From: Actinomycetota bacterium
GTDB lineage: Bacteria; Actinomycetota; Thermoleophilia; Solirubrobacterales; Solirubrobacteraceae
DNA length: 38,987 nucleotides
Assembly: GCA_005788585.1 (NCBI GenBank)
Contig: SYBY01000036.1
Span: 1 to 38,987, forward strand
Direction: 5' to 3'
This document shows positions 10,413 to 38,980 of the stretch, in pieces. The translations under genes were made by a program, and so were the position numbers. The first letter of the stretch is position 1, and each line of letters begins with the position of its first letter. The notes under the pieces were generated by a model. The model ran no database searches. It was not told the origin of the DNA and was given only the letters and a program-made list of their open reading frames with translations.

Positions 10413-12350
10413 GTGGGGGTTCGGACCAGCCTTGTCATCGGGTTCACAGGTGTCGCCGTGCACGGCGTCCTGGCGTTCGTCGCGCCGGACGGCACCGCGT
10501 CCGCCCTGCTCTATCTCAGCGTCGCCCTCCTGGCCTTCGGGCTCGTCCTCGCGCGCGGCGCCACCCGACGTGCCGAGCGTGCGGCATGGCTGCTGATCGC
10601 CACGAGCCAGGGGCTGTGGCTGGCCGCCGATCTGCTGTGGACCGCGCTGGGCGATCCGCCCTTCTTCTCGGCCGCCGACGCGACGTACGTCGCCTCGTAC
10701 GTCGCCCAGTTCGCGGGTATCGGCGTGCTCATGCACGACCGCCTGCGGTTGCTCCCGGGTGCGCGCTGGCTCGACGGTCTGGTCGTGGGGACCACGGTGG
10801 CCGCGATCGTCGCGGCCGTCCTCGTCGAGCCGATCCGCGCCGGCGCCGGGGACGAGGTCGTGACGGCGCTGTTCTACCCGAGCTTCGACCTCGTCGTGAT
10901 CGTCCTCGTCGCCGTCCCGGTCGGCATGACTGGCTGGAGGCCCGGGCGCGCCCTCAGCTGGCTGGCGTGCGGCGTCGGGCTCGTCGCGTTGACCGACGTC
11001 CTCTACGCACGCCAGGCGGTGGACGACGCCTCCGTCGCCGGGTCCCTGTTTGCCACGCTGTGGCTGCTCGCCTACATGGTGATCGCGACGGCGGCGTGGC
11101 AGCCGGAGGACGCGCGGTCCTTCGATCGCGAGCCGCGATGGCGTGAAGGTGTCGTCCCCGGTGCGTGCGGGTTCCTCGCGATCGCGGTCCTCGCGGCCGC
11201 GGGCCTGCTCGAGCTCGGCGCCGTTGCCGTGCTGCTCGCGGCCGTCGCGGCGGTCCTCTCCGGTCTGCGGGCCGCGATCGTCTTCTTCGCGCACATGCGG
11301 CTGCTGGAGCGCAGCCGCGCGGAGGCCCGGCAGGACCAGCTCAGCGGCCTGCCCAACCGGCGGGCGCTGATCGAGGACCTCGACGGCGTGTTCGACGGCG
11401 GCTCGCCGGTGACCCTTGCGTTCTTCGACCTCGACGGCTTCAAGCTCTACAACGACAGCTTCGGTCACGCCGCCGGTGACGCGCTGCTGCACCGGCTCGG
11501 CACGCGCCTCGGCCGCACCGTCGCCGGCGTGGGGCGGGCGTACCGGCTCGGGGGCGACGAGTTCTGCGTGCTGCTCGACGGCGACGACGCGCGGGTCCAG
11601 GACGTGCTGCACGCCGCCGGTCACGCGCTGCGTGAGCGCGGCGACGGGTTCGCCATCACCGCGTCGGCCGGGTCGGTGGCGATTCCCGCCGAGGTCGACG
11701 AGCCCGGTGAGGCGCTGCGCGTCGCCGACCAGCGGATGTACGCGCGCAAGGCCGAGCGCCGCGCCCCCGCACGCATGCAGGCCCGTGACCTGCTGCTCGC
11801 CGTCGTGCGCGAGACCGAGCCCGACCTCGACGAGCACAACGGCGACGTCGGGCGTCTCGCACGTCAGCTCGGAGAGCACCTCGGCCTGGAAGGCGACGAT
11901 CTCGACATCGTCGTCCGCGCCGCAGAGCTGCACGACGTCGGCAAGGTCGCGATCCCCGACGAGATCCTCCACAAGCCCGCCGCGCTGAGCGAGGAGGAGT
12001 GGCAGCTCATGCGCCAGCACACGATCATCGGCGAGCGCATTCTCGCCGCGTCTCCCGGGCTGGCGCCCGTCGCGGAACTCGTGCGCGCGAGCCACGAGCG
12101 GTGGGACGGCGGCGGCTATCCCGACGGGCTCTGCGCCGGGGAGATCCCGCTCGGCGCGCGGATCATCACGGTCTGTGACTCGTTCGACGCGATCGTGTCC
12201 GACCGGCCCTACGCCCGGGGTCGCACGATCCACGAGGCGCTCGCCGAGCTCGAGCGCTGCGCCGGCGACCAGTTCGATCCCGAGGTCGTTGCGGCCTTTG
12301 CCGAGCTCGTGCGCTCGGGCGCGCTGGGCCTTGGGGTGCAGCACGCCTGA
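10413..12350 (+). CDS. Membrane GGDEF and HD-GYP protein (c-di-GMP synthesis and breakdown)
   Basis: About 645 aa from GTG 10413. Nine or ten hydrophobic segments in the first half form an integral-membrane sensor region. A GGDEF domain follows, with intact RLGGDEFCVLL and no RxxD inhibitory site five residues upstream. The C-terminal HD-GYP phosphodiesterase domain has LHDVGKVAIPDEIL and SHERWDGGGYPDG. Both catalytic signatures are present, so it could make and degrade cyclic di-GMP. In the usual HHExxDGxGYP motif the first His is Ser, which may remove one metal ligand. The start is uncertain: TTG 10341 lies in a terminator-like structure and no clear ribosome-binding site precedes GTG 10413. 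A second diguanylate cyclase is at 29330. Confidence 0.87.
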   Translation: MGVRTSLVIGFTGVAVHGVLAFVAPDGTASALLYLSVALLAFGLVLARGATRRAERAAWLLIATSQGLWLAADLLWTALGDPPFFSAADATYVASYVAQFAGIGVLMHDRLRLLPGARWLDGLVVGTTVAAIVAAVLVEPIRAGAGDEVVTALFYPSFDLVVIVLVAVPVGMTGWRPGRALSWLACGVGLVALTDVLYARQAVDDASVAGSLFATLWLLAYMVIATAAWQPEDARSFDREPRWREGVVPGACGFLAIAVLAAAGLLELGAVAVLLAAVAAVLSGLRAAIVFFAHMRLLERSRAEARQDQLSGLPNRRALIEDLDGVFDGGSPVTLAFFDLDGFKLYNDSFGHAAGDALLHRLGTRLGRTVAGVGRAYRLGGDEFCVLLDGDDARVQDVLHAAGHALRERGDGFAITASAGSVAIPAEVDEPGEALRVADQRMYARKAERRAPARMQARDLLLAVVRETEPDLDEHNGDVGRLARQLGEHLGLEGDDLDIVVRAAELHDVGKVAIPDEILHKPAALSEEEWQLMRQHTIIGERILAASPGLAPVAELVRASHERWDGGGYPDGLCAGEIPLGARIITVCDSFDAIVSDRPYARGRTIHEALAELERCAGDQFDPEVVAAFAELVRSGALGLGVQHA

Positions 12351-12410: not shown

Positions 12411-13472
12411 ATGGACCACGGACGTTGGATCACCCGGCGCCGCCTGCTGCGCGACGCTGGCGCCGGGGCGGGAACGCTCGCGCTGGCCGGCGCGGGCGCG
12501 GCACACCATGCGACCGACGCGCGCGCGGCGACCCCCACCTCCTGGCAGGCCAGCGTCCGCGAGCTCGAACGGCGCGTCGAGTCCCGCTATGTGCAGAACG
12601 GCGACGTCCGCATCCACTACGCGGTCGCCGGCCGTGGCAGCGGGAAGCCGCTGCTGCTGTTCGTCCACGGCTTCCCCGGGTGGTGGTGGACCTGGCGCCA
12701 CCTGATGGCCGCGCTCATGGACCGCTACACGGTCGCCGCGCTCGACATGCGCGGGTACCACCTCTCGGACAAGCCGGAGGGCGTCGAGCGCTACCGGATC
12801 GAGGAGCTCGTCGTCGACCTCGCGTATGTCATCGAGGACATCGGGCAGAAGCCCGCCACCGTCATCGGCCACGACTGGGGCGGCGGCGCCTGCTGGGGGC
12901 TGGCGTGGGGCGGGCCCGACGGCGCGGCTCAAGGCTACGTCGAGCGCCTCGTCACCCTGAATTGCCCGCACCCCTGGGGCCTCGAGCGCGAGCGTCACCA
13001 GAACCCCGCGCAGGCCGCGGCCGCGAGGTACGCGCAGGAGTTCCGCCGCCCCGACGCCGCCCAGCGTCCGCTCCCCGAGCAGATGGCGCGCAAGATGTAC
13101 TACGTGCAGACGCGCGTGACGCCGCTCGCGCTCGCGCTGATCCTGTCCGTGCGGGAGCCGCTGGACCTCCCCCGGCACTACGAGGCGATGCGCCGCACCT
13201 CGATCCAGGCGGCACTGAACTACTACGGCGCGAACTGGCCGGCCGAGCCCTACCCGGCGCCGTCGACCGACTTCAAGGTCCGGTGCCCGACCCTGTGCAT
13301 CTTCGGCGAGAAGGACGAGTTCCTGTTCGTGGACACGCTGGACGGCACCCACCGGTTCGTCGAGAACGACCTGTCGGTCGAGATCATCCAGCGGGCCGAG
13401 CACTTCGTGCACAACGACGCCCGCCACCAGGTCACCCGGATCCTCGGCGACTGGCTGGAGCGCACGGCATGA
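12411..13472 (+). CDS. Epoxide hydrolase-type alpha/beta hydrolase with Tat signal
   Basis: A 353-aa alpha/beta hydrolase of the soluble epoxide hydrolase/haloalkane dehalogenase group. The N-terminus has a twin-arginine stretch (TRRRLLRDAG, residues 8-17) and a hydrophobic Ala/Gly segment, so it is probably exported folded by the Tat system. HGFPGWWWTWR (86-96) is the oxyanion motif, and the nucleophile is Asp155 in GHDWGG. The acid is likely in FGEKDEFL and the catalytic His in AEHFVHND near the C-terminus. Tyr-rich cap segments (MYYVQTR, NYYGANW) match epoxide hydrolases. The ATG at 12411 has GGAGG about 10 nt upstream. Its stop codon overlaps the next gene's start in an ATGA arrangement, so the two are translationally coupled. 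Confidence 0.88.
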   Translation: MDHGRWITRRRLLRDAGAGAGTLALAGAGAAHHATDARAATPTSWQASVRELERRVESRYVQNGDVRIHYAVAGRGSGKPLLLFVHGFPGWWWTWRHLMAALMDRYTVAALDMRGYHLSDKPEGVERYRIEELVVDLAYVIEDIGQKPATVIGHDWGGGACWGLAWGGPDGAAQGYVERLVTLNCPHPWGLERERHQNPAQAAAARYAQEFRRPDAAQRPLPEQMARKMYYVQTRVTPLALALILSVREPLDLPRHYEAMRRTSIQAALNYYGANWPAEPYPAPSTDFKVRCPTLCIFGEKDEFLFVDTLDGTHRFVENDLSVEIIQRAEHFVHNDARHQVTRILGDWLERTA

Positions 13473-29254: not shown

Positions 29255-29307
29255 ACGAAGCGACCAGTGTACCGCGCCCGCTGCGCCAGGACGGCTGGCC
29301 GCAGGGG

Positions 29308-29313
29308 TACTCT
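29308..29313 (+). promoter_or_regulatory. -10-like TACTCT of the diguanylate cyclase gene
   Basis: TACTCT lies 16 nt before GTG 29330, which would give a leader of about 9 nt. The 75-bp gap from the divergent tRNA gene holds nothing else I can name; no Shine-Dalgarno is seen. Confidence 0.4.
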
Positions 29314-29329
29314 GGGATCCGGGTTCTCT

Positions 29330-31228
29330 GTGAGCTTTCGTCAGCGTCTCACCGGCTTCTTCGTCGCGATCGTCATCCTGCCGATGGCGATCGTCGGCTT
29401 CGTGCTGTTCCAGCTCATCGAGGACAACGAGACCGGGAAGGCCGATGCGAGCCTCGCCGCGCAGCAGGAGGTCGAGATCAACCTCTTCCGCGCGGCGCGC
29501 GACCGGGCCCAGACGGCGGCGACGCAGATCGCGGCCGACCGCCAGCTCGCCACCGCCCTGCAGGAGGATGACGCGGACGCCGCGCGCGACCGCGCGTTCG
29601 AGCTGCTGGACAGCCGGCGCGCGCGCCGGATCGTCATCGAACGCGATGGCGGGGCGTACGTCGACGTCGGCAGCCGGACGGCCACCGCCCCCGCCGCGGC
29701 GCGGCTGATGACCGCCGACAACCAGCCGGCCGGCGAGCTGCAGGTGTCCGTCGAGGAGGCTGCGGAGTTCGCGGGAGAGGCCGCGGGCCTCGTCGACGGC
29801 GAGGTCGTCGTCCTCTCCGACCGGGCGGTGCTGGGCGCCTCCATTCCCGGGGCGGCGCGGACCGACCTGCCCGACGAGGGCGAGGTGACGATCGGCCCGG
29901 AGGACTACCGGGCCGCGTCCTTCGGGGCCGCAGGGTTTCTCGGCGAGCGCACCCGCGTCGTGACGCTCGCGGCGACCGGTGCGACCGCGGACGACATCAC
30001 GCGCAGCAGGCTGCTCGCGGCCATGCTCCTCGGGGGGTTCTTCATCCTGGCGTTCGTCTTCGCGCTTGTGGTGTCCCGTTCGCTGCAGCAGCAGATCGGC
30101 GGCGTGCTGTCGGCGGCTCGGCGCCTCGGCGGCGGGGATCTCGACGCCCGCGTGCCGACGGTCGGCAACGACGAGTTCGCCGAACTCGGCCACGAGTTCA
30201 ACAAGATGGCCGAGCAGCTCCAGGTGCGGCTCGCCGAGCTCCAGCGTGAGCGCGAGCGGGTGCAAAGCTCCATGCGGCGGCTCGGGCAGGCCGTCGGCTC
30301 GAACCTCGACGCGGAGGCCCTGCTCCAGCTCGTCGTCGAGACCGCGGTCGAGGGTGTCGACGCCGACGCCGGGCGCGTGATCGTGCGCGACAGCGACGGC
30401 GAGCTGCACGAGGCCGCGCGCGTGGGGCTCGGCGACGGGCTGGGCGACACCGTGCGTCAGGCCGAGAGCCGCGCCCTGCAGGCCGGGCGGCCGCAGACGG
30501 TGGCCGCGCCCGGATCGGTCGCCCTCGCGCACCCGCTACGGGTGCATGAGACCGACGGCCAGGTCTCCGACGTCGCCGGCGTCGTGTCGGTCGGACGCGC
30601 CGGCCGGCCGTTCAGCCTTGCCGAGACCGAGCTGTTCCACTACCTCGCCGCGCAGGCGGCGGTGTCCGTGGAGAACGTCGGGCGCCACGAGGCGGTCGCC
30701 CGGCAGTCGGTCACCGACCCGCTGACGCGCCTGGCCAATCGCCGTCGCTTCGACGAGGCGCTCGCGGCCGAGGTGGAGCGCGCGATACGGCTGGGGCAGC
30801 CGCTGGGGCTCGTGCTGCTGGACCTGGACGACTTCAAGGCCGTCAACGACGAGTACGGCCACCAGCAGGGCGATGTCGTGCTCCGTGAGGTCGCGCGCGC
30901 CGTGCGGCGTGCCTGCCGCGACATCGACATCCCCGCCCGCTACGGCGGCGAGGAGCTTGCGGTGATCCTCCCGGGCGCCGATCTCGACGGGGCGTACGAG
31001 CTGGCCGAGCGCGTGCGCCGTGGCGTCGAGGCGCTGCGCGTCCCGCGCCTGGAGGGCGAGGGCGCGCTGCGGGTGACGACGAGCCTCGGCGTGTCCGCGG
31101 TGCCCTCCACGGCGGAGGACGGCGGGTCGCTCGTCGCCGGCGCGGATGCCGCGCTGTACCGGGCCAAGCGAGACGGCAAGAACCGGACGGCGCGGGCCGT
31201 CGTCGCGGGCGCGGTGCCCGCCGAGTAG
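29330..31228 (+). CDS. Membrane diguanylate cyclase with HAMP, GAF and GGDEF domains
   Basis: A 632-aa sensor enzyme making cyclic di-GMP. TM1 (about 9-33) and TM2 (about 222-244) enclose an extracytoplasmic domain of about 190 residues. HAMP follows (GVLSAARRLGGGDLDARVPT), then a coiled-coil helix, a GAF domain (about 320-460) and a C-terminal GGDEF domain. The active-site loop reads ARYGGEELAVILPG, an active GG[DE]E form with Leu for Phe, and RDID five residues upstream matches the RxxD inhibitory site, so product feedback is expected. GTG 29330 is chosen to place TM1 at the N-terminus. The TAG stop begins TAGGCT, the -10-like element of the next gene. Confidence 0.9.
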   Translation: MSFRQRLTGFFVAIVILPMAIVGFVLFQLIEDNETGKADASLAAQQEVEINLFRAARDRAQTAATQIAADRQLATALQEDDADAARDRAFELLDSRRARRIVIERDGGAYVDVGSRTATAPAAARLMTADNQPAGELQVSVEEAAEFAGEAAGLVDGEVVVLSDRAVLGASIPGAARTDLPDEGEVTIGPEDYRAASFGAAGFLGERTRVVTLAATGATADDITRSRLLAAMLLGGFFILAFVFALVVSRSLQQQIGGVLSAARRLGGGDLDARVPTVGNDEFAELGHEFNKMAEQLQVRLAELQRERERVQSSMRRLGQAVGSNLDAEALLQLVVETAVEGVDADAGRVIVRDSDGELHEAARVGLGDGLGDTVRQAESRALQAGRPQTVAAPGSVALAHPLRVHETDGQVSDVAGVVSVGRAGRPFSLAETELFHYLAAQAAVSVENVGRHEAVARQSVTDPLTRLANRRRFDEALAAEVERAIRLGQPLGLVLLDLDDFKAVNDEYGHQQGDVVLREVARAVRRACRDIDIPARYGGEELAVILPGADLDGAYELAERVRRGVEALRVPRLEGEGALRVTTSLGVSAVPSTAEDGGSLVAGADAALYRAKRDGKNRTARAVVAGAVPAE

Positions 31229-32756: not shown

Positions 32757-32892
32757 TTGGGTCGCCGTGCGCACCGCCCGATAGGCACCTCGGACAGGGT
32801 TCGCATCACGGCCGCTGGGGATCGGCCGGATGCGACGGACTTGCCTCGGAGGGCAAGGACGCAACGGGGGCGCCTCTTCGGAGGCGCCCTCG
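32757..32892 (+). ncRNA. Candidate structured leader RNA or small RNA ending in a terminator
   Basis: In the 301-bp gap before the patatin gene, TTGGGT (32757-32762) and GATAGG (32780-32785) give a possible promoter with a 17-bp spacer, so RNA would begin near 32792. Three helices follow. Helix A is 32801-32814 with 32823-32835, 13 bp with one bulged A. Helix B is 32840-32845 with 32852-32857. Then comes the unpaired GACGCAAC and a very stable 9-bp terminator-like stem 32868-32889 with a UUCG loop. This looks like a riboswitch or attenuator, or a small RNA of about 100 nt. A stem followed by GACGCAA recalls c-di-GMP-I riboswitches, but other required parts are missing. No known class is claimed. 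Confidence 0.45.
32868..32889 (+). terminator. UUCG-loop hairpin ahead of the patatin gene
   Basis: GGGCGCCTC-TTCG-GAGGCGCCC is a perfect 9-bp stem with a UUCG tetraloop, followed by TCGCCATTTCC. It lies about 105 nt before the patatin ATG and can end the candidate leader RNA. Confidence 0.65.
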
Positions 32893-32994
32893 CCATTTCC
32901 GGGGAGGGCTCCGGCCGAGGCTCGACGCGATGTCGAAACGCCGGCGCGCCGGGTGGACCGTCCGGACCTATCGCCGTCGGGTGGGCGCGAGACA

Positions 32995-34314
32995 ATGCCT
33001 GACCGGATGGCGATGGAGAGCAACGGCACCGCGGCGCCCAGGGTGGCGCTCGTCCTGCCGGGAGGAGGAGCACGCGGCGCCTACGAGGCGGGCGCGCTGT
33101 CCGTGCTGCTTCCGGCGCTCGAGGCGCGCGGCGAGAAGGTGTCGGTCATCTGCGGGACGAGTGTCGGGGCCATCAACGCCGCAGCTGCCGCGTCGGTGGT
33201 GCACCGGCCGATGGACGAGCAGGTCGACCATTCGCTCGAGCACTGGCGCAGCCTGCGCAAGACCGATGTGATCAGCCCGGTGCTCGGCCCCGGCCTGGCC
33301 GTGTCCGCCGCGCGCGGCGTGGCCGAGGCGCTCGGGGTGCCCGGGGTGCGCCTGGCGTCCCTGCTCGATCCGCGCCCGATGGCGTCGAGCCTGGAGAAGT
33401 GGATCGACTGGATGGCGCTGCACCGCAACGTCCGCAACGGCACGCTCGACGCGGTGTGCGTGGTTGCGACGTCCCTGTCGACCGGCCGTCCCACGGCGTT
33501 CGTCGAGCGGCGCGGCCCGGCGCCGCGCAACAAGAGCACGGACGGCATCCGCTTCCAGAAGGTGACGCTGTCAGGGCAGCACGTCCGCGCGTCCGCGGCC
33601 ATGCCGCTGCTGTTTCCGCCTGTGGAGGTCACGCGTCCGGCGCGTGCCGCCGGCCACTACATCGACGGGGCCACGCGCCTGAACACACCGCTGGCTCCGG
33701 CCCTCGCACTGGGCGCCGACCGCGTGATCGTCATCGGGTTCAAGCCCTTCGCCACCCCGCCGGAGGAGGAGCTCGCGCGGCGTCCCCGCATGACGGACGT
33801 CCTCGCGAACGTGCTCGACGGCCTGATGGTCGACCAGATCGCCGACGACCTGCACCAGCTCGCGGCGATCAACTCGTTCTTCGCCGACAGCATCGGCGGG
33901 ATCTCCTCGTCGGCGCGGGCCTACCGCAACGCCCGGGGCCGGCCGTCGTACCGCAAGATCTCCTACGCGCTCGTCGCGCCCGAGACACGCACGACGCTCG
34001 CCGATGTCGCCGAGCGCATCCTCGACGAGAAGTACGGCGGCCTGCGCGCGCTCCGCGACCCGGACTTCCCGCTGCTCTCCCGGCTGCTGGACGGTGGCCG
34101 CCGCGGCGAGCTCATGAGCTTCGTGCTGTTCGACCCGGACTTCGCCGCGGCGCTCATCGAGATCGGCCAGGCCGACGCGCAGCGCTGGCTCGACCGTCAT
34201 CCGCGGTTCTGGTGCTCGGACGCCGCGCACGACCTCGACTTCGACGACGCGGGGACGGAGATGCTCCGCGAGGAGCACGCGATCGACGAGTGGCGCGAGC
34301 TGCGGCGCCGCTGA
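32995..34314 (+). CDS. Patatin-like phospholipase
   Basis: A 439-aa lipid acyl hydrolase with a Ser-Asp dyad. The oxyanion loop is LPGGGARGAYEAG (21-33), the nucleophile is Ser56 in GTSVGAINA, and the Asp is Asp224 in YIDGATRLNTPL. Patatins deacylate membrane phospholipids or neutral lipids. Beyond the catalytic domain there is a C-terminal region of about 190 residues (RKISYALVAPETRTTLADVA, later DAQRWLDRHPRFWCSD) seen in long bacterial patatins. No signal peptide, so cytoplasmic or peripheral. ATG 32995 is the first of three close in-frame ATGs (32995, 33007, 33013); no clear ribosome-binding site distinguishes them. The candidate structured RNA upstream may control it. It converges on TetR with a 6-bp gap and no hairpin. 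Confidence 0.9.
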   Translation: MPDRMAMESNGTAAPRVALVLPGGGARGAYEAGALSVLLPALEARGEKVSVICGTSVGAINAAAAASVVHRPMDEQVDHSLEHWRSLRKTDVISPVLGPGLAVSAARGVAEALGVPGVRLASLLDPRPMASSLEKWIDWMALHRNVRNGTLDAVCVVATSLSTGRPTAFVERRGPAPRNKSTDGIRFQKVTLSGQHVRASAAMPLLFPPVEVTRPARAAGHYIDGATRLNTPLAPALALGADRVIVIGFKPFATPPEEELARRPRMTDVLANVLDGLMVDQIADDLHQLAAINSFFADSIGGISSSARAYRNARGRPSYRKISYALVAPETRTTLADVAERILDEKYGGLRALRDPDFPLLSRLLDGGRRGELMSFVLFDPDFAAALIEIGQADAQRWLDRHPRFWCSDAAHDLDFDDAGTEMLREEHAIDEWRELRRR

Positions 34315-34320
34315 CGCGCC

Positions 34321-34944
34321 TCAGTCGCCGAGGAGGATCCGCTCGAGGACCGGCCGGGCGTCGGGCCACGGGTCCCGCGGCTCGCGGGCGGTCGGCTCGA
34401 AGGCCTGGGAGAGGGCCAGGCCGCGCAGCGCAGACAGCGCGAGATTGACCCGGGCGTTGAGGTCGTCGGGCTGCGGGCTGTCCTTGCCCGCGAGGTCGGG
34501 CACCGTCGCTGCGATCTCCCGTGCGAGCTGGCGCTCGAGCGGGACGAGGCGGTCGTAGAGCTCGCGGTCGTCCGCGGCCGCGACCCAGAGCTTCACGAAG
34601 ATCGTGAAGATCGGGCTGCTGAAGTCCTGCCAGATGAGGTCGAGCACCGCGCGGGTGCGCGCGGGCCGGGCGCTGGGAAGGTCGGCCATCCGGGCGCGCA
34701 GGTTCGCCGTGCGCTGGTTGGCGGCCTGCTCGAGCGCGGCCCCGACGAGGTCGACCCGCCGCGGGAAGTGGTGGGTCTGCGCCCCCTGGGACACGCCCGC
34801 GATCTCGGCGACGCGCCGGGTCGTCGTTCCGGCGTAGCCCACCTCGAGCAGGCTCGTGAGCGTCGCGTCGAGCAGCTTGCGCCGCGTCTCGGCGGTGCGT
34901 TCCTCCTGCGTGCGGCGGATGGGCCGGGGTTCGGTCGTCGACAT
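34321..34944 (-). CDS. TetR/AcrR family transcriptional regulator
   Basis: A 207-aa regulator. The helix-turn-helix is at about 38-66 (YAGTTTRRVAEIAGVSQGAQ, then THHFPRRVDLV), followed by a helical ligand-binding domain with a C-terminal stretch SALRGLALSQAFEP. The ATG at 34944 has GGAG 8 nt upstream, so unlike several neighbours it has a leader. It diverges from an acyl-CoA dehydrogenase across 62 bp containing repeated TATGTA elements, the usual layout of a TetR controlling fatty-acid or acyl-CoA catabolism and itself. The ligand could be an acyl-CoA; this is inferred from context only. Confidence 0.92.
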   Translation of the reverse strand: MSTTEPRPIRRTQEERTAETRRKLLDATLTSLLEVGYAGTTTRRVAEIAGVSQGAQTHHFPRRVDLVGAALEQAANQRTANLRARMADLPSARPARTRAVLDLIWQDFSSPIFTIFVKLWVAAADDRELYDRLVPLERQLAREIAATVPDLAGKDSPQPDDLNARVNLALSALRGLALSQAFEPTAREPRDPWPDARPVLERILLGD

Positions 34945-34960
34945 CGGGCGTCTCCGACCC

Positions 34961-35000
34961 TACACAGATATGTACAAAGCAAGCGTTCGGTATGTATCCT
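34961..35000. promoter_or_regulatory. Operator region between TetR and the acyl-CoA dehydrogenase gene
   Basis: TATCCT (34995-35000) is a -10-like hexamer 6 nt before the dehydrogenase ATG, so that message looks leaderless. Upstream, TATGTA occurs at 34969-34974 and 34991-34996, 22 bp apart (two helical turns), within an imperfect palindrome whose ends read GATATGTAC and GGTATGTATC. CGTTCGGTATG (34984-34994) also occurs, with one change, at 12365-12375. TAGGGT on the minus strand, 12 nt before the TetR ATG, is a likely -10 for that gene. Confidence 0.5.
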
Positions 35001-35006
35001 GGGCCC

Positions 35007-36170
35007 ATGGCCACAGCCACCACTTCCGGACGCACGATCTTCGAGTCCGAGCACGACGACTACCGCGAGAGCTTCCGCCGCTTCCTCGAGGCGGAGGTCA
35101 AGCCGCACTACGACGACTGGAACGCGGCGGGAATCATCCCGCGCGAGATGTTCGCCAAGGCCGCCGAGCACGGCTTCCTGGCGATGGAGGTGCCCGAGGA
35201 GTACGGCGGCCAGGGCGTCGACGACTGGCGCTTCAACGTCGTCCTCATGGAGGAGGCCGCGACCTCCGGCGTCGGCGACGCGTGGGCCGGCCCGCTGCTG
35301 CACACCGACGTCTGCCTGCCCTACTTCATGGCGAGCTGCACCGAGGAGCAGAAGGCGCGCTGGCTGCCGGGGATGGCGTCGGGCGAGCTCATCGCCGCGG
35401 TCGCGATGACCGAGCCGGGCACGGGTTCCGACCTCGCCGCGATCGCCACCAGCGCCAAGCGCGACGGCGACACGTACATCCTCAACGGCGCGAAGACGTT
35501 CATCACGAACGGCATCAACGCCGACCTCGTCATCGTCGCCGCGCGCACGAGCGACGATCCGCATGGCGGCCTGTCGCTCTTCATCGTCGAGCGCGGGTTC
35601 GACGGCTTCGAGCGCGGCAAGCAGATCGAGAAGCTCGGCCAGCACGCGTCCGACACCGCGGAGCTGTTCTTCAACGACTGCGTGGTCCCCGCGGAGAACC
35701 TCCTCGGCGAGGAGGGCTCGGGCTTCTACCAGCTCGTCGCGCGCCTGGTGCCCGAGCGCCTGACCCTGGCGGTCAGCTCGGTCGCGGGCTGCGAGACGGT
35801 GCTGGAGCAGACGCTGGAGTACGTCAAGGAGCGCAAGGCGTTCGGCCGCCCGATCGGGACGTTCCAGAACTCCCGCTTCAAGATGGCCGAGATGAAGACG
35901 GAGATCACGATCACCCGCGCCTTCGTCGACCAGTGCATCAGCAAGTACGTCGCCGGCACCTGCGGGGTCGACGAGGCCGCGATGGCCAAGTACTACACGA
36001 CCGATCTGCTCTGCAAGGTCGCCGACGAGTGCCTCCAGTTGCACGGCGGCTACGGCTACACCAAGGAGTACAAGATCGGCCAGGCGTGGATCGACGCCCG
36101 CGTCGGGCGGATCTACGCGGGCACGAACGAGATCATGAAGGAGCTCATCGGCAAGACCATGGGCTTGTGA
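35007..36170 (+). CDS. Acyl-CoA dehydrogenase
   Basis: A 387-aa FAD-dependent acyl-CoA dehydrogenase making the trans-2-enoyl-CoA in beta-oxidation or branched-chain catabolism. Family signatures are AMTEPGTGSD (133-142) in the FAD/substrate region, ITNGINADLVIVAAR, YVKERKAFGRPIGTFQ, and QLHGGYGYTKEYKIGQAWID near the C-terminus. The usual YEGT catalytic Glu is Ala here (YAGTNE, Ala371). The catalytic base is more likely Glu250 in VPERLT, the place used by isovaleryl- and long-chain acyl-CoA dehydrogenases. The ATG at 35007 is 6 nt after TATCCT, without a Shine-Dalgarno. Divergent TetR is its likely regulator. Its last codons form one arm of a terminator. Confidence 0.94.
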   Translation: MATATTSGRTIFESEHDDYRESFRRFLEAEVKPHYDDWNAAGIIPREMFAKAAEHGFLAMEVPEEYGGQGVDDWRFNVVLMEEAATSGVGDAWAGPLLHTDVCLPYFMASCTEEQKARWLPGMASGELIAAVAMTEPGTGSDLAAIATSAKRDGDTYILNGAKTFITNGINADLVIVAARTSDDPHGGLSLFIVERGFDGFERGKQIEKLGQHASDTAELFFNDCVVPAENLLGEEGSGFYQLVARLVPERLTLAVSSVAGCETVLEQTLEYVKERKAFGRPIGTFQNSRFKMAEMKTEITITRAFVDQCISKYVAGTCGVDEAAMAKYYTTDLLCKVADECLQLHGGYGYTKEYKIGQAWIDARVGRIYAGTNEIMKELIGKTMGL

Positions 36171-36189
36171 GGCAGGGCCTCACAAGCCC
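36161..36189 (+). terminator. Terminator overlapping the acyl-CoA dehydrogenase stop codon
   Basis: A perfect 12-bp stem (36161-36172 with 36178-36189) with a 5-nt loop. The last codons and the TGA stop are part of the left arm. The tail AGCTCTTTCG is modestly T-rich. It can end the dehydrogenase transcript with almost no 3' untranslated region. Confidence 0.8.
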
Positions 36190-36212
36190 AGCTCTTTCGA
36201 CCAAGCGTGCGC

Positions 36213-36247
36213 GCGTCCCGCGGCCCGGTCTGGGGGCCGCGGGACGC
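36213..36247 (-). terminator. Terminator of the polyester hydrolase gene
   Basis: A perfect 14-bp GC-rich stem (36213-36226 with 36234-36247) with a 7-nt loop, 16 nt beyond the stop codon of the minus-strand hydrolase gene. It may also back up the dehydrogenase terminator on the other strand. Confidence 0.8.
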
Positions 36248-36263
36248 CGCGCGAACTACCCGG

Positions 36264-37121
36264 CTAGAAGGGGCAGCTCGAGCTGTACGTCGAGAACTCG
36301 CCGGCGGTCAGCGCCGCCGGGCCGGGGCAGATGAACTGCGCGTAGCGCGTGTCGTTGTCGACGAAGCGCTTGAGCCAGGTCAGGACGCTCGCCATGTTGC
36401 GCTGCGTGTAGACGTTGGTGGCGAAGTGGCCGCCGCTGGGGTACTCGATGTAGGCCTTCGGCGTCGTGGCCGGGATCGAGCGGTGGAACGGGATGACGTG
36501 CATGAACGTTGGCGCGATGACGTCGTCCGCGATGCCGATCTGGAGGTTCGGCACCGTGATCTCGGGCCACGAGCCGTCCTGATGCCACGAGGCGAGACCG
36601 ATGGCCGCCTTCAGCGCGGGGCGGGCCTTCGAGGCCGAGAGCGTCCCGCCGCCGCCCATGGAATGGCCGATGACCGCCTGGCGGGTCGGGTCGACGATGT
36701 TCTTCGTCGAGGCCGCAACCTTCATGTGGTCCAGCGCCATCAGCAGCGCCTTGCCGCGGCTCGGGGGCAGATCGAACGGGGTGTTGGTGTTGAACGCCAT
36801 GACGACGAAGCCGTTGGAGGCGAGCTTCTGACCGAGCCAACGGGTCGCCGACATGTCCTCGGTGAACCCGGGCGCCATGGCGACGATGCCGAACTTCTCG
36901 CCGGTGGTCGTGACCGGCCGCCAGATCATCCCGATGCTGAAGGCGCTCGACGCCGCCTCGGTGACGCGCACAGCGGTCACGGCGTACGGACCCTGGGCGG
37001 CGCGAACCGACGCGACGGTGGGATCGGGACCCTTGGCGAAGGGGTTGGCGGCGGCAGGGGCCGCTGTGACCGCGAGCGCGAGCAGCGCAAACGCGGCCAT
37101 CAGGAGATGGCGTAGGCGCAT
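36264..37121 (-). CDS. Secreted polyester hydrolase, cutinase/PET-hydrolase family
   Basis: A 285-aa exported serine hydrolase matching actinobacterial cutinases and PET hydrolases along its length. The signal peptide ends near residue 25 and the mature protein starts NPFAKGPDPT. The triad is Ser154 in GHSMGGGGT, Asp200 in DDVIAP and His232 in GGHFATN. The oxyanion residues are Phe86 (PGFTED) and Met155; Trp179 and His180 (ASWHQ) line the binding site. The C-terminus has WLKRFVDNDTRYAQF, then ICPGP and SCPF with the conserved Cys pair (265 and 283). Thermobifida cutinases and Ideonella PETase have Tyr at the Phe86 position. ATG 37121 is chosen because GAGG lies 6 nt upstream. It is a single gene with its own terminator. 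Confidence 0.92.
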   Translation of the reverse strand: MRLRHLLMAAFALLALAVTAAPAAANPFAKGPDPTVASVRAAQGPYAVTAVRVTEAASSAFSIGMIWRPVTTTGEKFGIVAMAPGFTEDMSATRWLGQKLASNGFVVMAFNTNTPFDLPPSRGKALLMALDHMKVAASTKNIVDPTRQAVIGHSMGGGGTLSASKARPALKAAIGLASWHQDGSWPEITVPNLQIGIADDVIAPTFMHVIPFHRSIPATTPKAYIEYPSGGHFATNVYTQRNMASVLTWLKRFVDNDTRYAQFICPGPAALTAGEFSTYSSSCPF

Positions 37122-37203
37122 CGAGAACCTCATGAGACAGGCAGCGGAGCTGCCGTGGACAGGGAGCGCCGGACAGGGCGCGCGGGCACGGTACAGCTCG
37201 GTA

Positions 37204-37214
37204 CCCGTAACGGG
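37204..37214 (-). promoter_or_regulatory. Inverted repeat upstream of the polyester hydrolase gene
   Basis: CCCGT-A-ACGGG is a perfect 11-bp inverted repeat about 83 nt before the hydrolase ATG, in a 135-bp gap that otherwise shows TTGAGG and TTGCCC as possible -35 elements. It may be an operator; no matching site was found elsewhere in the window. Confidence 0.35.
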
Positions 37215-37256
37215 CAACCTCAAGTGCCGTAGTGATAATCCGCGTCTCTCGGCGGG

Positions 37257-38657
37257 TCAGCGACGGCGGGCGGCGCGCACGACGGTGAACCCCGCACGGC
37301 GCGTGGCCCCGCCGGTGCTCGCGCGGGCGATCAGCCGGTAGCGGCCGACCCGCAGCTGCCGGCCGCCGAGGCGTCCTGCGAACCGGATCGTGGTGGCGCC
37401 GGGCCGGACCGCCCGTGTGAAGCTCTCGCGGACCGCGACGAAGCGCGTGCACGCCGACCGGCGGCGGTTGGCCCGGGTCGGCGCGACGCACCGCCCGCCG
37501 ACGCGCCGCCCGCCACGCGCCCGCTGGACGGTGAACCGCACCGTGCCGGCGATGTTCGCGCGGACCGCGATGCGGGCGGCGCCCCCGGCGATCCGCCAGC
37601 GGTTCGGGGTGACACGCAGCGCGGTGAGGATGAACCGCTCGGGCGGCGTGGTGGACGGCGGCGGTGCCACGCCGGGGGCCGGCACCTCGACGGCGCCGGC
37701 ATCGCACGCAACGCCCTGTGGCCGTGCCAGCCCGCGCTGGTCCACGGCGCCCGCCGCGCACGACGGGTCGGCATCGACGGCCGGGCTTCCGGGCGCCGGG
37801 ACCATGGTCGCAGTCGCGCCGCCGTGGTCGGCGAGAGGGCCGAGCTGCAGCGGCGCGGTGCGCTCCAGCGCGCAGGCCGGGTCGGCGCTGGCGTTCGCCC
37901 CGAGGCTCCCGATCGCGCCGGCACACGAGCCGACGATCGACGCGTGCGCCGCGATCGCGCCCCGGACGTCGGGCCCGCCCGCGTTCTGCGCGACCGTCGT
38001 CCCGCGCACGGTCGCCAGGCCCTGATCCGCGGCGATGCCCGCCCCGTCGGGTGCGGTGTTGCCGGAGATGGTCGTGTTCACCGCGGTCACCCGTGAGCCG
38101 GCGCCGCCGAGGTAGATGGCGCCGCCCTTCCCGGTCGCGACGTTGGCCGTCAGCGTGCTGTGGGCGAGCTCCACCGTACCGCCCGTCGCGTCGATCGCGG
38201 CGCCGTTGGCCGCGGTGTTCCCGCTGAAGACGACGTTTGTCGCCCGGAAGGTCATGCCCGAGCCGAACAGCAGGACGGCCGACGCGTTGCGCGATCCGGT
38301 GAGGGTGACCCCCGACAGGTCCAGCGTCGCGTTCTGCTCGACGAGGAACACGCGTCCGTCTCCACCGCTGACCTCACGGATGGCCGTGGTGCGGGGATCG
38401 GCGCCGACGATCTCGACCTGCTCGCCGATGGACACGATGAGGTCCTGGCCGGTCTGGTCGTACGTGCCGGGCGGGACGCGGATGGTGTCGCGGCCCGGCA
38501 CCGTCTTGGCGTCGGCGATCGCCTGGCGCAGCGTGCACTGACCGGGTAGGGCGCAGTTGCCGTTCCCGGGGGCGGTGCTGTCGACCTGGAACTCCGCTGC
38601 GGTGGCGGGGCTCGCCGCGGCGAGGGTCAGGAGGGCGGTGAGAACCAGCGTGCGCAC
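37257..38657 (-). CDS. Exported beta-helix protein with choice-of-anchor-Q-like segment
   Basis: A 466-aa secreted protein. The signal peptide (MRTLVLTALLTLAAASPATA) precedes NCALPGQCTLRQAIADAKT, the usual opening of the polymorphic-outer-membrane/CSLREA-like beta-helix family. The right-handed beta-helix repeats run to about 240. GPLADHGGATATMVPAPGSP, then DQRGLARPQGVACDAGAVEV, is the choice-of-anchor-Q segment. A Pro-rich linker leads to a C-terminal beta-sandwich (about 345-466) with GGRCVAPTRANRRRSACTRF and a basic tail. No catalytic site is evident; adhesion, glycan binding or cell-wall attachment are possible. The GTG start has no clear ribosome-binding site. It resembles the 4353-6266 gene in layout. 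Confidence 0.84.
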   Translation of the reverse strand: MRTLVLTALLTLAAASPATAAEFQVDSTAPGNGNCALPGQCTLRQAIADAKTVPGRDTIRVPPGTYDQTGQDLIVSIGEQVEIVGADPRTTAIREVSGGDGRVFLVEQNATLDLSGVTLTGSRNASAVLLFGSGMTFRATNVVFSGNTAANGAAIDATGGTVELAHSTLTANVATGKGGAIYLGGAGSRVTAVNTTISGNTAPDGAGIAADQGLATVRGTTVAQNAGGPDVRGAIAAHASIVGSCAGAIGSLGANASADPACALERTAPLQLGPLADHGGATATMVPAPGSPAVDADPSCAAGAVDQRGLARPQGVACDAGAVEVPAPGVAPPPSTTPPERFILTALRVTPNRWRIAGGAARIAVRANIAGTVRFTVQRARGGRRVGGRCVAPTRANRRRSACTRFVAVRESFTRAVRPGATTIRFAGRLGGRQLRVGRYRLIARASTGGATRRAGFTVVRAARRR

Positions 38658-38686
38658 ACCGGGACAACCGGCGTGCGCGCCAGGAC

Positions 38687-38980
38687 TTACGCCTCGGGCT
38701 CGATATCCGTGACCTGGCCGAGCATCTGCGGCAGGACCGCGAAGAACATCTCCTCGAGCTCGTCGGGCACGGTCAGCGTGACGCCCTCGAAGTGAAAGTG
38801 GTCGCCGTGGGCGCGCACGTGGGTCTCCACCGACGCGCCCGCGATGACGAAGAACGGGATGAGCGAGAAGTACTCGAGGTCCTCGAACTCCTCGGGCTCG
38901 ATCCCGGTGTCGACGAGGAGCTTCCAGAGCCGGTCGTCGTACTGCGAGTCGCCGACGGAGATGCGCGCGATCTGGGTCAT
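38687..38980 (-). CDS. Small acidic protein of unknown function
   Basis: A 97-aa protein starting MTQIARISVGDSQYDDRLWK. It is rich in Asp and Glu and has no signal peptide or membrane segment, though LEYFSLIPFFVIAGASVETH in the middle is hydrophobic enough to be a core strand pair. HGDHFHFEG holds three His residues close together. The end is ELEEMFFAVLPQMLGQ. I do not recognise the family. The ATG at 38980 is close to the window end with GGGGGC before it. It precedes the beta-helix gene by 29 bp on the same strand and may be cotranscribed with it. Confidence 0.7.
   Translation of the reverse strand: MTQIARISVGDSQYDDRLWKLLVDTGIEPEEFEDLEYFSLIPFFVIAGASVETHVRAHGDHFHFEGVTLTVPDELEEMFFAVLPQMLGQVTDIEPEA

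Follow-up and report, generated by a model that had tools for sequence, protein, structure and literature searches.

The window analysed here, the whole 38,987-nucleotide stretch of contig SYBY01000036.1 (GenBank assembly GCA_005788585.1), carries a PETase/cutinase-family hydrolase gene at 36264-37121; it lies on the minus strand and comprises 285 codons, with the ATG at 37121 and the stop codon at 36264. A previous sequence-only reading had given exactly this span, leaving the strand unstated; on the plus strand, the same frame yields a different reading that contains a stop. The product is a full-length member of the poly(ethylene terephthalate) (PET) hydrolase/cutinase family, which is already known and in which the protein looks otherwise ordinary. 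What makes it stand out is the placement on a long-stemmed branch with residues of its own (Ala198, Phe206-Met207 and, in part, Leu118), not the Phe86 highlighted previously.

The gene is genuine and conserved far beyond chance because the translation matches Pfam PF12740 (PET hydrolase-like) over positions 2-263 of the 263-position profile (280.9 bits against a cut-off of 28, E = 1.3e-83), has at least 962 homologs at E ≤ 1e-20 among 7997 candidates scored, and has intact orthologs in two named genomes, a Solirubrobacteraceae metagenome-assembled genome (MAG; locus L001) and Svornostia abyssi (L002). The only other Pfam families detected at E ≤ 1e-3 were PAF-AH_p_II (25 bits, cut-off 20) and Hydrolase_4 (23.9 bits, cut-off 27). 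The same methionine start and the same length of 285 amino acids (aa) in both orthologs and in the homologs P0002 and P0003 support the start codon. As read from the sequence, the N-terminus of the precursor combines a basic start, a hydrophobic stretch and AxA; the solved PDB chains among the matches listed mostly start aligning at about residue 25, and the first ~20 residues of the structural model have a low predicted local distance difference test score (pLDDT). The mature protein thus probably begins at about Ala25/Asn26, after export by the Sec pathway.

The predicted model (pLDDT 88.3) adopts the cutinase/PETase alpha/beta fold, with TM-scores of 0.88 (query) and 0.96 (target) against the Cut190 structure 5zno, and superposes on PHL7, Cut190 and the Thermobifida cutinases at 1.0-1.3 Å. 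In the Foldseek search, the ancestral PETases 8etx and 8etz (47% identity) superposed at 4.8 Å, and 8eu0, from the same series, at 1.7 Å. All residues named in the sequence-only reading (GHSMGGGG with Ser154, Asp200, His232, Trp179-His180, Phe86 and Cys265/Cys283) were located at the precursor numbering it used, and its motifs NPFAKGPDPT, FVDNDTRYAQF, FNTNTPFDLPPSR and ADDVIAPTFMH are all present in the translation. The alignment of 135 rows places the Ser154/Asp200/His232 triad, with the nucleophile in a GHSMGG elbow, together with Met155, the aromatic oxyanion residue Phe86 and the stacking Trp179. Type I PET hydrolases, as defined by Joo et al. and described in passages of PMC7031157, have a single C-terminal disulfide and no loop extension after the catalytic His. 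This anatomy is predicted here, as the sequence-only reading had anticipated: besides the C-terminal Cys pair, Ile197 and Ala234 occupy the positions of the second pair of Ideonella sakaiensis PETase (IsPETase; Cys203 and Cys239), and 18 residues separate the catalytic His from the next Trp, the same as in LCC, compared to 21 in IsPETase, a type IIb enzyme with a three-residue loop extension. IsPETase shares with the window protein the family, the triad and the stacking Trp (Trp185, equivalent to Trp179) but has Trp159, Ser214 and Ile218 where the window protein has His153, His208 and Phe212. The Thermobifida cutinases (TfCut2/Est119; 5zoa, 4cg1, 3vis) share the fold (1.2-1.3 Å), the triad, the Cys pair, FVDNDTRY and the C-terminal CPF, at 45-46% identity, and differ in having the oxyanion Tyr instead of Phe.

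This latter substitution had been taken to set the protein apart, which turned out not to be the case. Among the 119 nearest homologs (P0002-P0120), a list that may lean towards the residue of the query, the oxyanion residue is Phe in 63, Tyr in 54, and Trp and Asp in one each. Similar proportions, 51% Tyr and 46% Phe, are given for the core-domain homologs of PAZy in a passage of PMC10213408, with Phe63 of PHL7 as an example. Phe is thus present in about half of the family, including PHL7/PSH1, Cut190 and PE-H, in which, according to passages of PMC7031157, the oxyanion hole is formed by the backbone NH groups of Met172 and Phe98; this rules out Phe86 as a distinguishing feature. Replacement of the equivalent Phe106 of Cut190 with Tyr is reported to lower the turnover (in a passage of PMC9039725), and the Phe-to-Tyr change likewise lowered the activity of PHL7 (in a passage of PMC10213408). 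Phe86 is a standard state of the family rather than a deviation.

With high confidence, we interpret the protein as a presumably secreted PETase/cutinase-family alpha/beta-hydrolase; this confidence pertains to the family, the fold and the serine-esterase mechanism, not to the use of polymers. By homology, following Sec export of the precursor, Ser154, activated by His232 and Asp200, would attack the ester carbonyl of a substrate bound in an open surface groove. The backbone NH groups of Phe86 and Met155 would hold the oxyanion, with Trp179 packing on the substrate, and water would then free the acyl-enzyme. In nature, the enzyme most likely acts on a polyester of plant or microbial origin or on a lipid ester, such as pieces of cutin or suberin or esters of the polyhydroxyalkanoate-like or acylglycerol kind. 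Soft synthetic polyesters, namely, polycaprolactone (PCL) and poly(butylene succinate-co-adipate), or bis(hydroxyethyl) terephthalate (BHET), are likely to be hydrolysed as well, and appreciable hydrolysis of PET, although not predictable, is possible.

Several observations weigh against this reading. The score against the NCBIfam equivalog NF051441 (bis(hydroxyethyl) terephthalate hydrolase) was 303.2 bits, below the cut-off of 520, so that the name of a BHET hydrolase is not earned, and the identity to the solved entries among the matches listed is 39-48%. In the groove, Leu118 of the window protein stands where 109 of the 119 homologs have Gln, as do Cut190 (Gln138) and PHL7/PSH1 (PES-H1; 7nei, 7cuv), and Phe206-Met207 where Ser or Ala followed by Ser is usual (Gly-Gln in P0004). 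Finally, in the careful phylogenetic tree, all eight reference rows (IsPETase, LCC, Thermobifida cutinase, Cut190, PSH1, Thermomonospora 7ykq, the ancestral construct P0055 and the Amycolatopsis lipase P0067) fall within a 17-row clade with 99/99 support (98 in the quick tree), from which the window branch is excluded.

The quick tree consisted of 135 rows and the careful tree of 53, namely, 37 of the 120 P proteins, 10 locus proteins and six reference chains (L014 was omitted, being identical to P0024). The careful tree resolves the window branch as six rows with 100/100 support and a stem of 0.57, and it places two further starred branches between this branch and the reference clade. The window branch is thus outside the clade of these eight enzymes; we keep the claim to these eight because the tree is rooted at the midpoint and samples neither type IIa nor Bacteroidota nor archaeal enzymes. 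Given that IsPETase falls inside the 17-row clade, type I is a grade rather than a clade in this tree. Two other Thermoleophilia proteins, P0024 from Solirubrobacter and L016, are nearer to the reference enzymes, behind a starred branch, so that a single Thermoleophilia clade is not supported and the class holds several branches; P0002 was labelled Thermoleophilia on the strength of its 91% identity. The little-sampled Thermoleophilia branch proposed in the sequence-only reading accordingly stands as far as the host is concerned, with its placement refined to outside, rather than among, the eight sampled reference enzymes.

The host belongs to Solirubrobacterales, class Thermoleophilia, a sparsely characterised group. 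The nearest named genomes by the hydrolase are the Solirubrobacteraceae MAG (94%) and S. abyssi (82%), which is assigned at NCBI to Thermoleophilia, Solirubrobacterales, Baekduiaceae; in the MAG, the identities of the neighbouring genes to those of the window are 99% for the dehydrogenase, 99% for the patatin-like protein, 92% for the TetR-family regulator and 91% for the beta-helix protein. Of 399 sampled genomes in the class to which Svornostia (G002) belongs, 8 contain relatives of the window protein (P0001) at E ≤ 1e-30, as do 9 of the 146 in the family of G001. The distribution is patchy, with as many as three copies in one genome of the same family (G238), where the three PETase-family genes (L017, L020, L021) are diverged, and two of these (L017 and L020) have Trp at the oxyanion position. 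In the plasmid collection, five records matched at E ≤ 1e-30, all with less than 60% identity, without a sign that the window branch is plasmid-borne. Full-text literature on Thermoleophilia, Solirubrobacter and Svornostia yielded no title devoted to such an enzyme, a weak negative, with most subscription papers outside the coverage; the passages searched of PMC13422221, on Antarctic PET hydrolases, do not mention Solirubro or Thermoleo.

Across majority-residue columns, the mature protein has 42 sites with a residue that occurs in less than 2% of the 116 homologs from outside the branch, consistent with a long separation. Ala198 is present in all six rows of the branch, compared to Glu, Gln or Asp in 115 of the 119 homologs, and Tyr227 replaces the Leu found in 113. 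Leu118 recurs in P0002, L001, L018 and one homolog outside the branch, whereas P0003, P0004 and the Svornostia ortholog, which also has Ser at position 231, have Gln. Thus, among the cleft-lining loops that the sequence-only reading considered distinctive, Ala198, Phe206 and Met207 are indeed particular to the branch, and the rest, including the Leu118 that is absent in Svornostia, are not. Calcium site 2 of Cut190 (Saccharomonospora viridis cutinase; 7cef, 5zno, 4wfi) consists of Glu220, Asp250 and Glu296, according to a passage of PMC9039725; these residues align with Ala198, Pro228 and Ser277 of the window protein, although this site is not a general feature of the family, with Asp and Glu at the last two positions in only 7 and 21 of the 119 homologs, respectively. 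After the catalytic His, Leu210 of PHL7/PSH1 is replaced by Phe233.

Features of the hydrolase gene and its neighbours in the window
Feature	Position	Strand	Evidence
PETase/cutinase-family hydrolase gene, 285 aa precursor	36264..37121	-	translation, Pfam, homologs, model, fold search
Probable Sec signal peptide, ~residues 1-25 (MRLRHLLMAAFALLALAVTAAPAAA)	37047..37121	-	sequence, PDB alignments, pLDDT
Phe86, oxyanion-hole position (= Cut190 Phe106, IsPETase Tyr87)	36864..36866	-	alignment
Ser154 nucleophile codon	36660..36662	-	alignment; S in 119/119 homologs
Asp200 triad codon	36522..36524	-	alignment; D in 119/119 homologs
His232 triad codon	36426..36428	-	alignment; H in 119/119 homologs
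Cys265-Cys283 C-terminal segment, conserved disulfide of the family (here putative)	36273..36329	-	alignment; C in 115/119 and 114/119 homologs
Patatin-like phospholipase near the hydrolase	32830..34314	+	PF01734, E 1.4e-25; 98.6% identity in L001 over 434 residues
TetR-family regulator adjoining the acyl-CoA dehydrogenase	34321..34944	-	Pfam; synteny
Acyl-CoA dehydrogenase, convergent neighbour	34992..36170	+	Pfam; synteny: in L001, L002, L044
Right-handed beta-helix protein, upstream of the hydrolase	37257..38657	-	Pfam; in L001 and L044, not L002

The hydrolase lies within a gene block that is shared, with or without the hydrolase itself, by the window (33010-38980), L001 (2146-8099), L002 (2739-8148) and L044 (4536-10317), the last from genome G250. 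In the window and L001, the order is patatin, TetR, acyl-CoA dehydrogenase, hydrolase, beta-helix gene and a 99-aa gene (97 aa when counted from the first ATG). Svornostia has the same dehydrogenase, TetR and patatin neighbours, but the place of the beta-helix gene, between the hydrolase and the 99-aa gene, is taken by an SPFH-domain gene; no SPFH match was found in the window or L001. In G250, the order is patatin, TetR, dehydrogenase, SPFH, beta-helix and the 99-aa gene. The hydrolase is missing from this locus, where 56 bases separate the stop codons of the dehydrogenase and SPFH genes and the best tblastn hit for a hydrolase remnant had an E-value of only 0.21, so that G250 provides an intact site for comparison with the hydrolase-bearing block. 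The family member that G250 does encode (43%) is on another contig, within a 12.5-kb stretch (L049) where a search for the other five window genes found none; loci L045-L048 lack the full block. On the simplest reading, the hydrolase was inserted between the dehydrogenase and SPFH genes on the lineage shared by the window and Svornostia, after which one descendant lost SPFH and the other lost the beta-helix gene; alternatively, the hydrolase may have been lost in G250. Functional coupling of the hydrolase with the dehydrogenase and the TetR regulator is not supported other than by their proximity.

The alternative that survives best differs from the interpretation above only in the substrate: the protein could be a secreted lipase or an esterase for small esters, from the same family and inactive on polymers, with the altered groove (Leu118, Phe206-Met207) favouring acylglycerols or short lipid esters and the released acids entering fatty-acid catabolism via the neighbouring acyl-CoA dehydrogenase. 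We regard this as a real possibility, albeit one that we lean against. G250 keeps these neighbours without the hydrolase, which implies that the linkage to the dehydrogenase is not obligatory, and family members named lipases can act on polyesters, such as the Amycolatopsis mediterranei lipase that, according to PMC7851449, degrades PCL and poly(butylene succinate). It is extremely improbable that the protein is a plain dienelactone hydrolase-like protein misread as a polyesterase because, although several homologs are named "dienelactone hydrolase family protein" and some have a precomputed PF01738 match, the window protein has no match to this family at E ≤ 1e-3, as opposed to 1.3e-83 for the PETase model, and the fold matches listed (50 per search) are all PETases, cutinases or closely related proteins, such as 1jfr, in line with the alignment and with the family originally proposed.

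Within the preferred interpretation as a PETase/cutinase-family hydrolase, we offer one tentative and, as a whole, rather unlikely scenario, in which an outer Solirubrobacterales branch, gained in a single lineage beside a fatty-acid-catabolism gene, combines the altered groove with the lack of a Cut190-type calcium site in a mesophilic polyesterase whose substrate range differs from that of the enzymes known to date. PET hydrolases are wanted for plastic recycling. The eight enzymes that serve as references here come from a single region of the family tree, and a Thermoleophilia branch from elsewhere could show at little cost whether the ability to hydrolyse polyesters is ancestral to the family or emerged inside the sampled clade. 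If inactive on polyesters, it would be a natural negative control for identifying the groove residues that matter. At present, this is one more uncharacterised homolog among many, which its outer placement makes a reasonable addition to an assay panel.

Elsewhere in the window, a second alpha/beta hydrolase is encoded at 12411-13472 on the plus strand (PF00561, E = 9.2e-24; no PETase match at E ≤ 1e-5), with an N-terminus that we take to be twin-arginine-like. In addition, the plus strand encodes two GGDEF proteins, at 10413-12350 and 29267-31228, one with an HD-type phosphodiesterase domain and one with HAMP.
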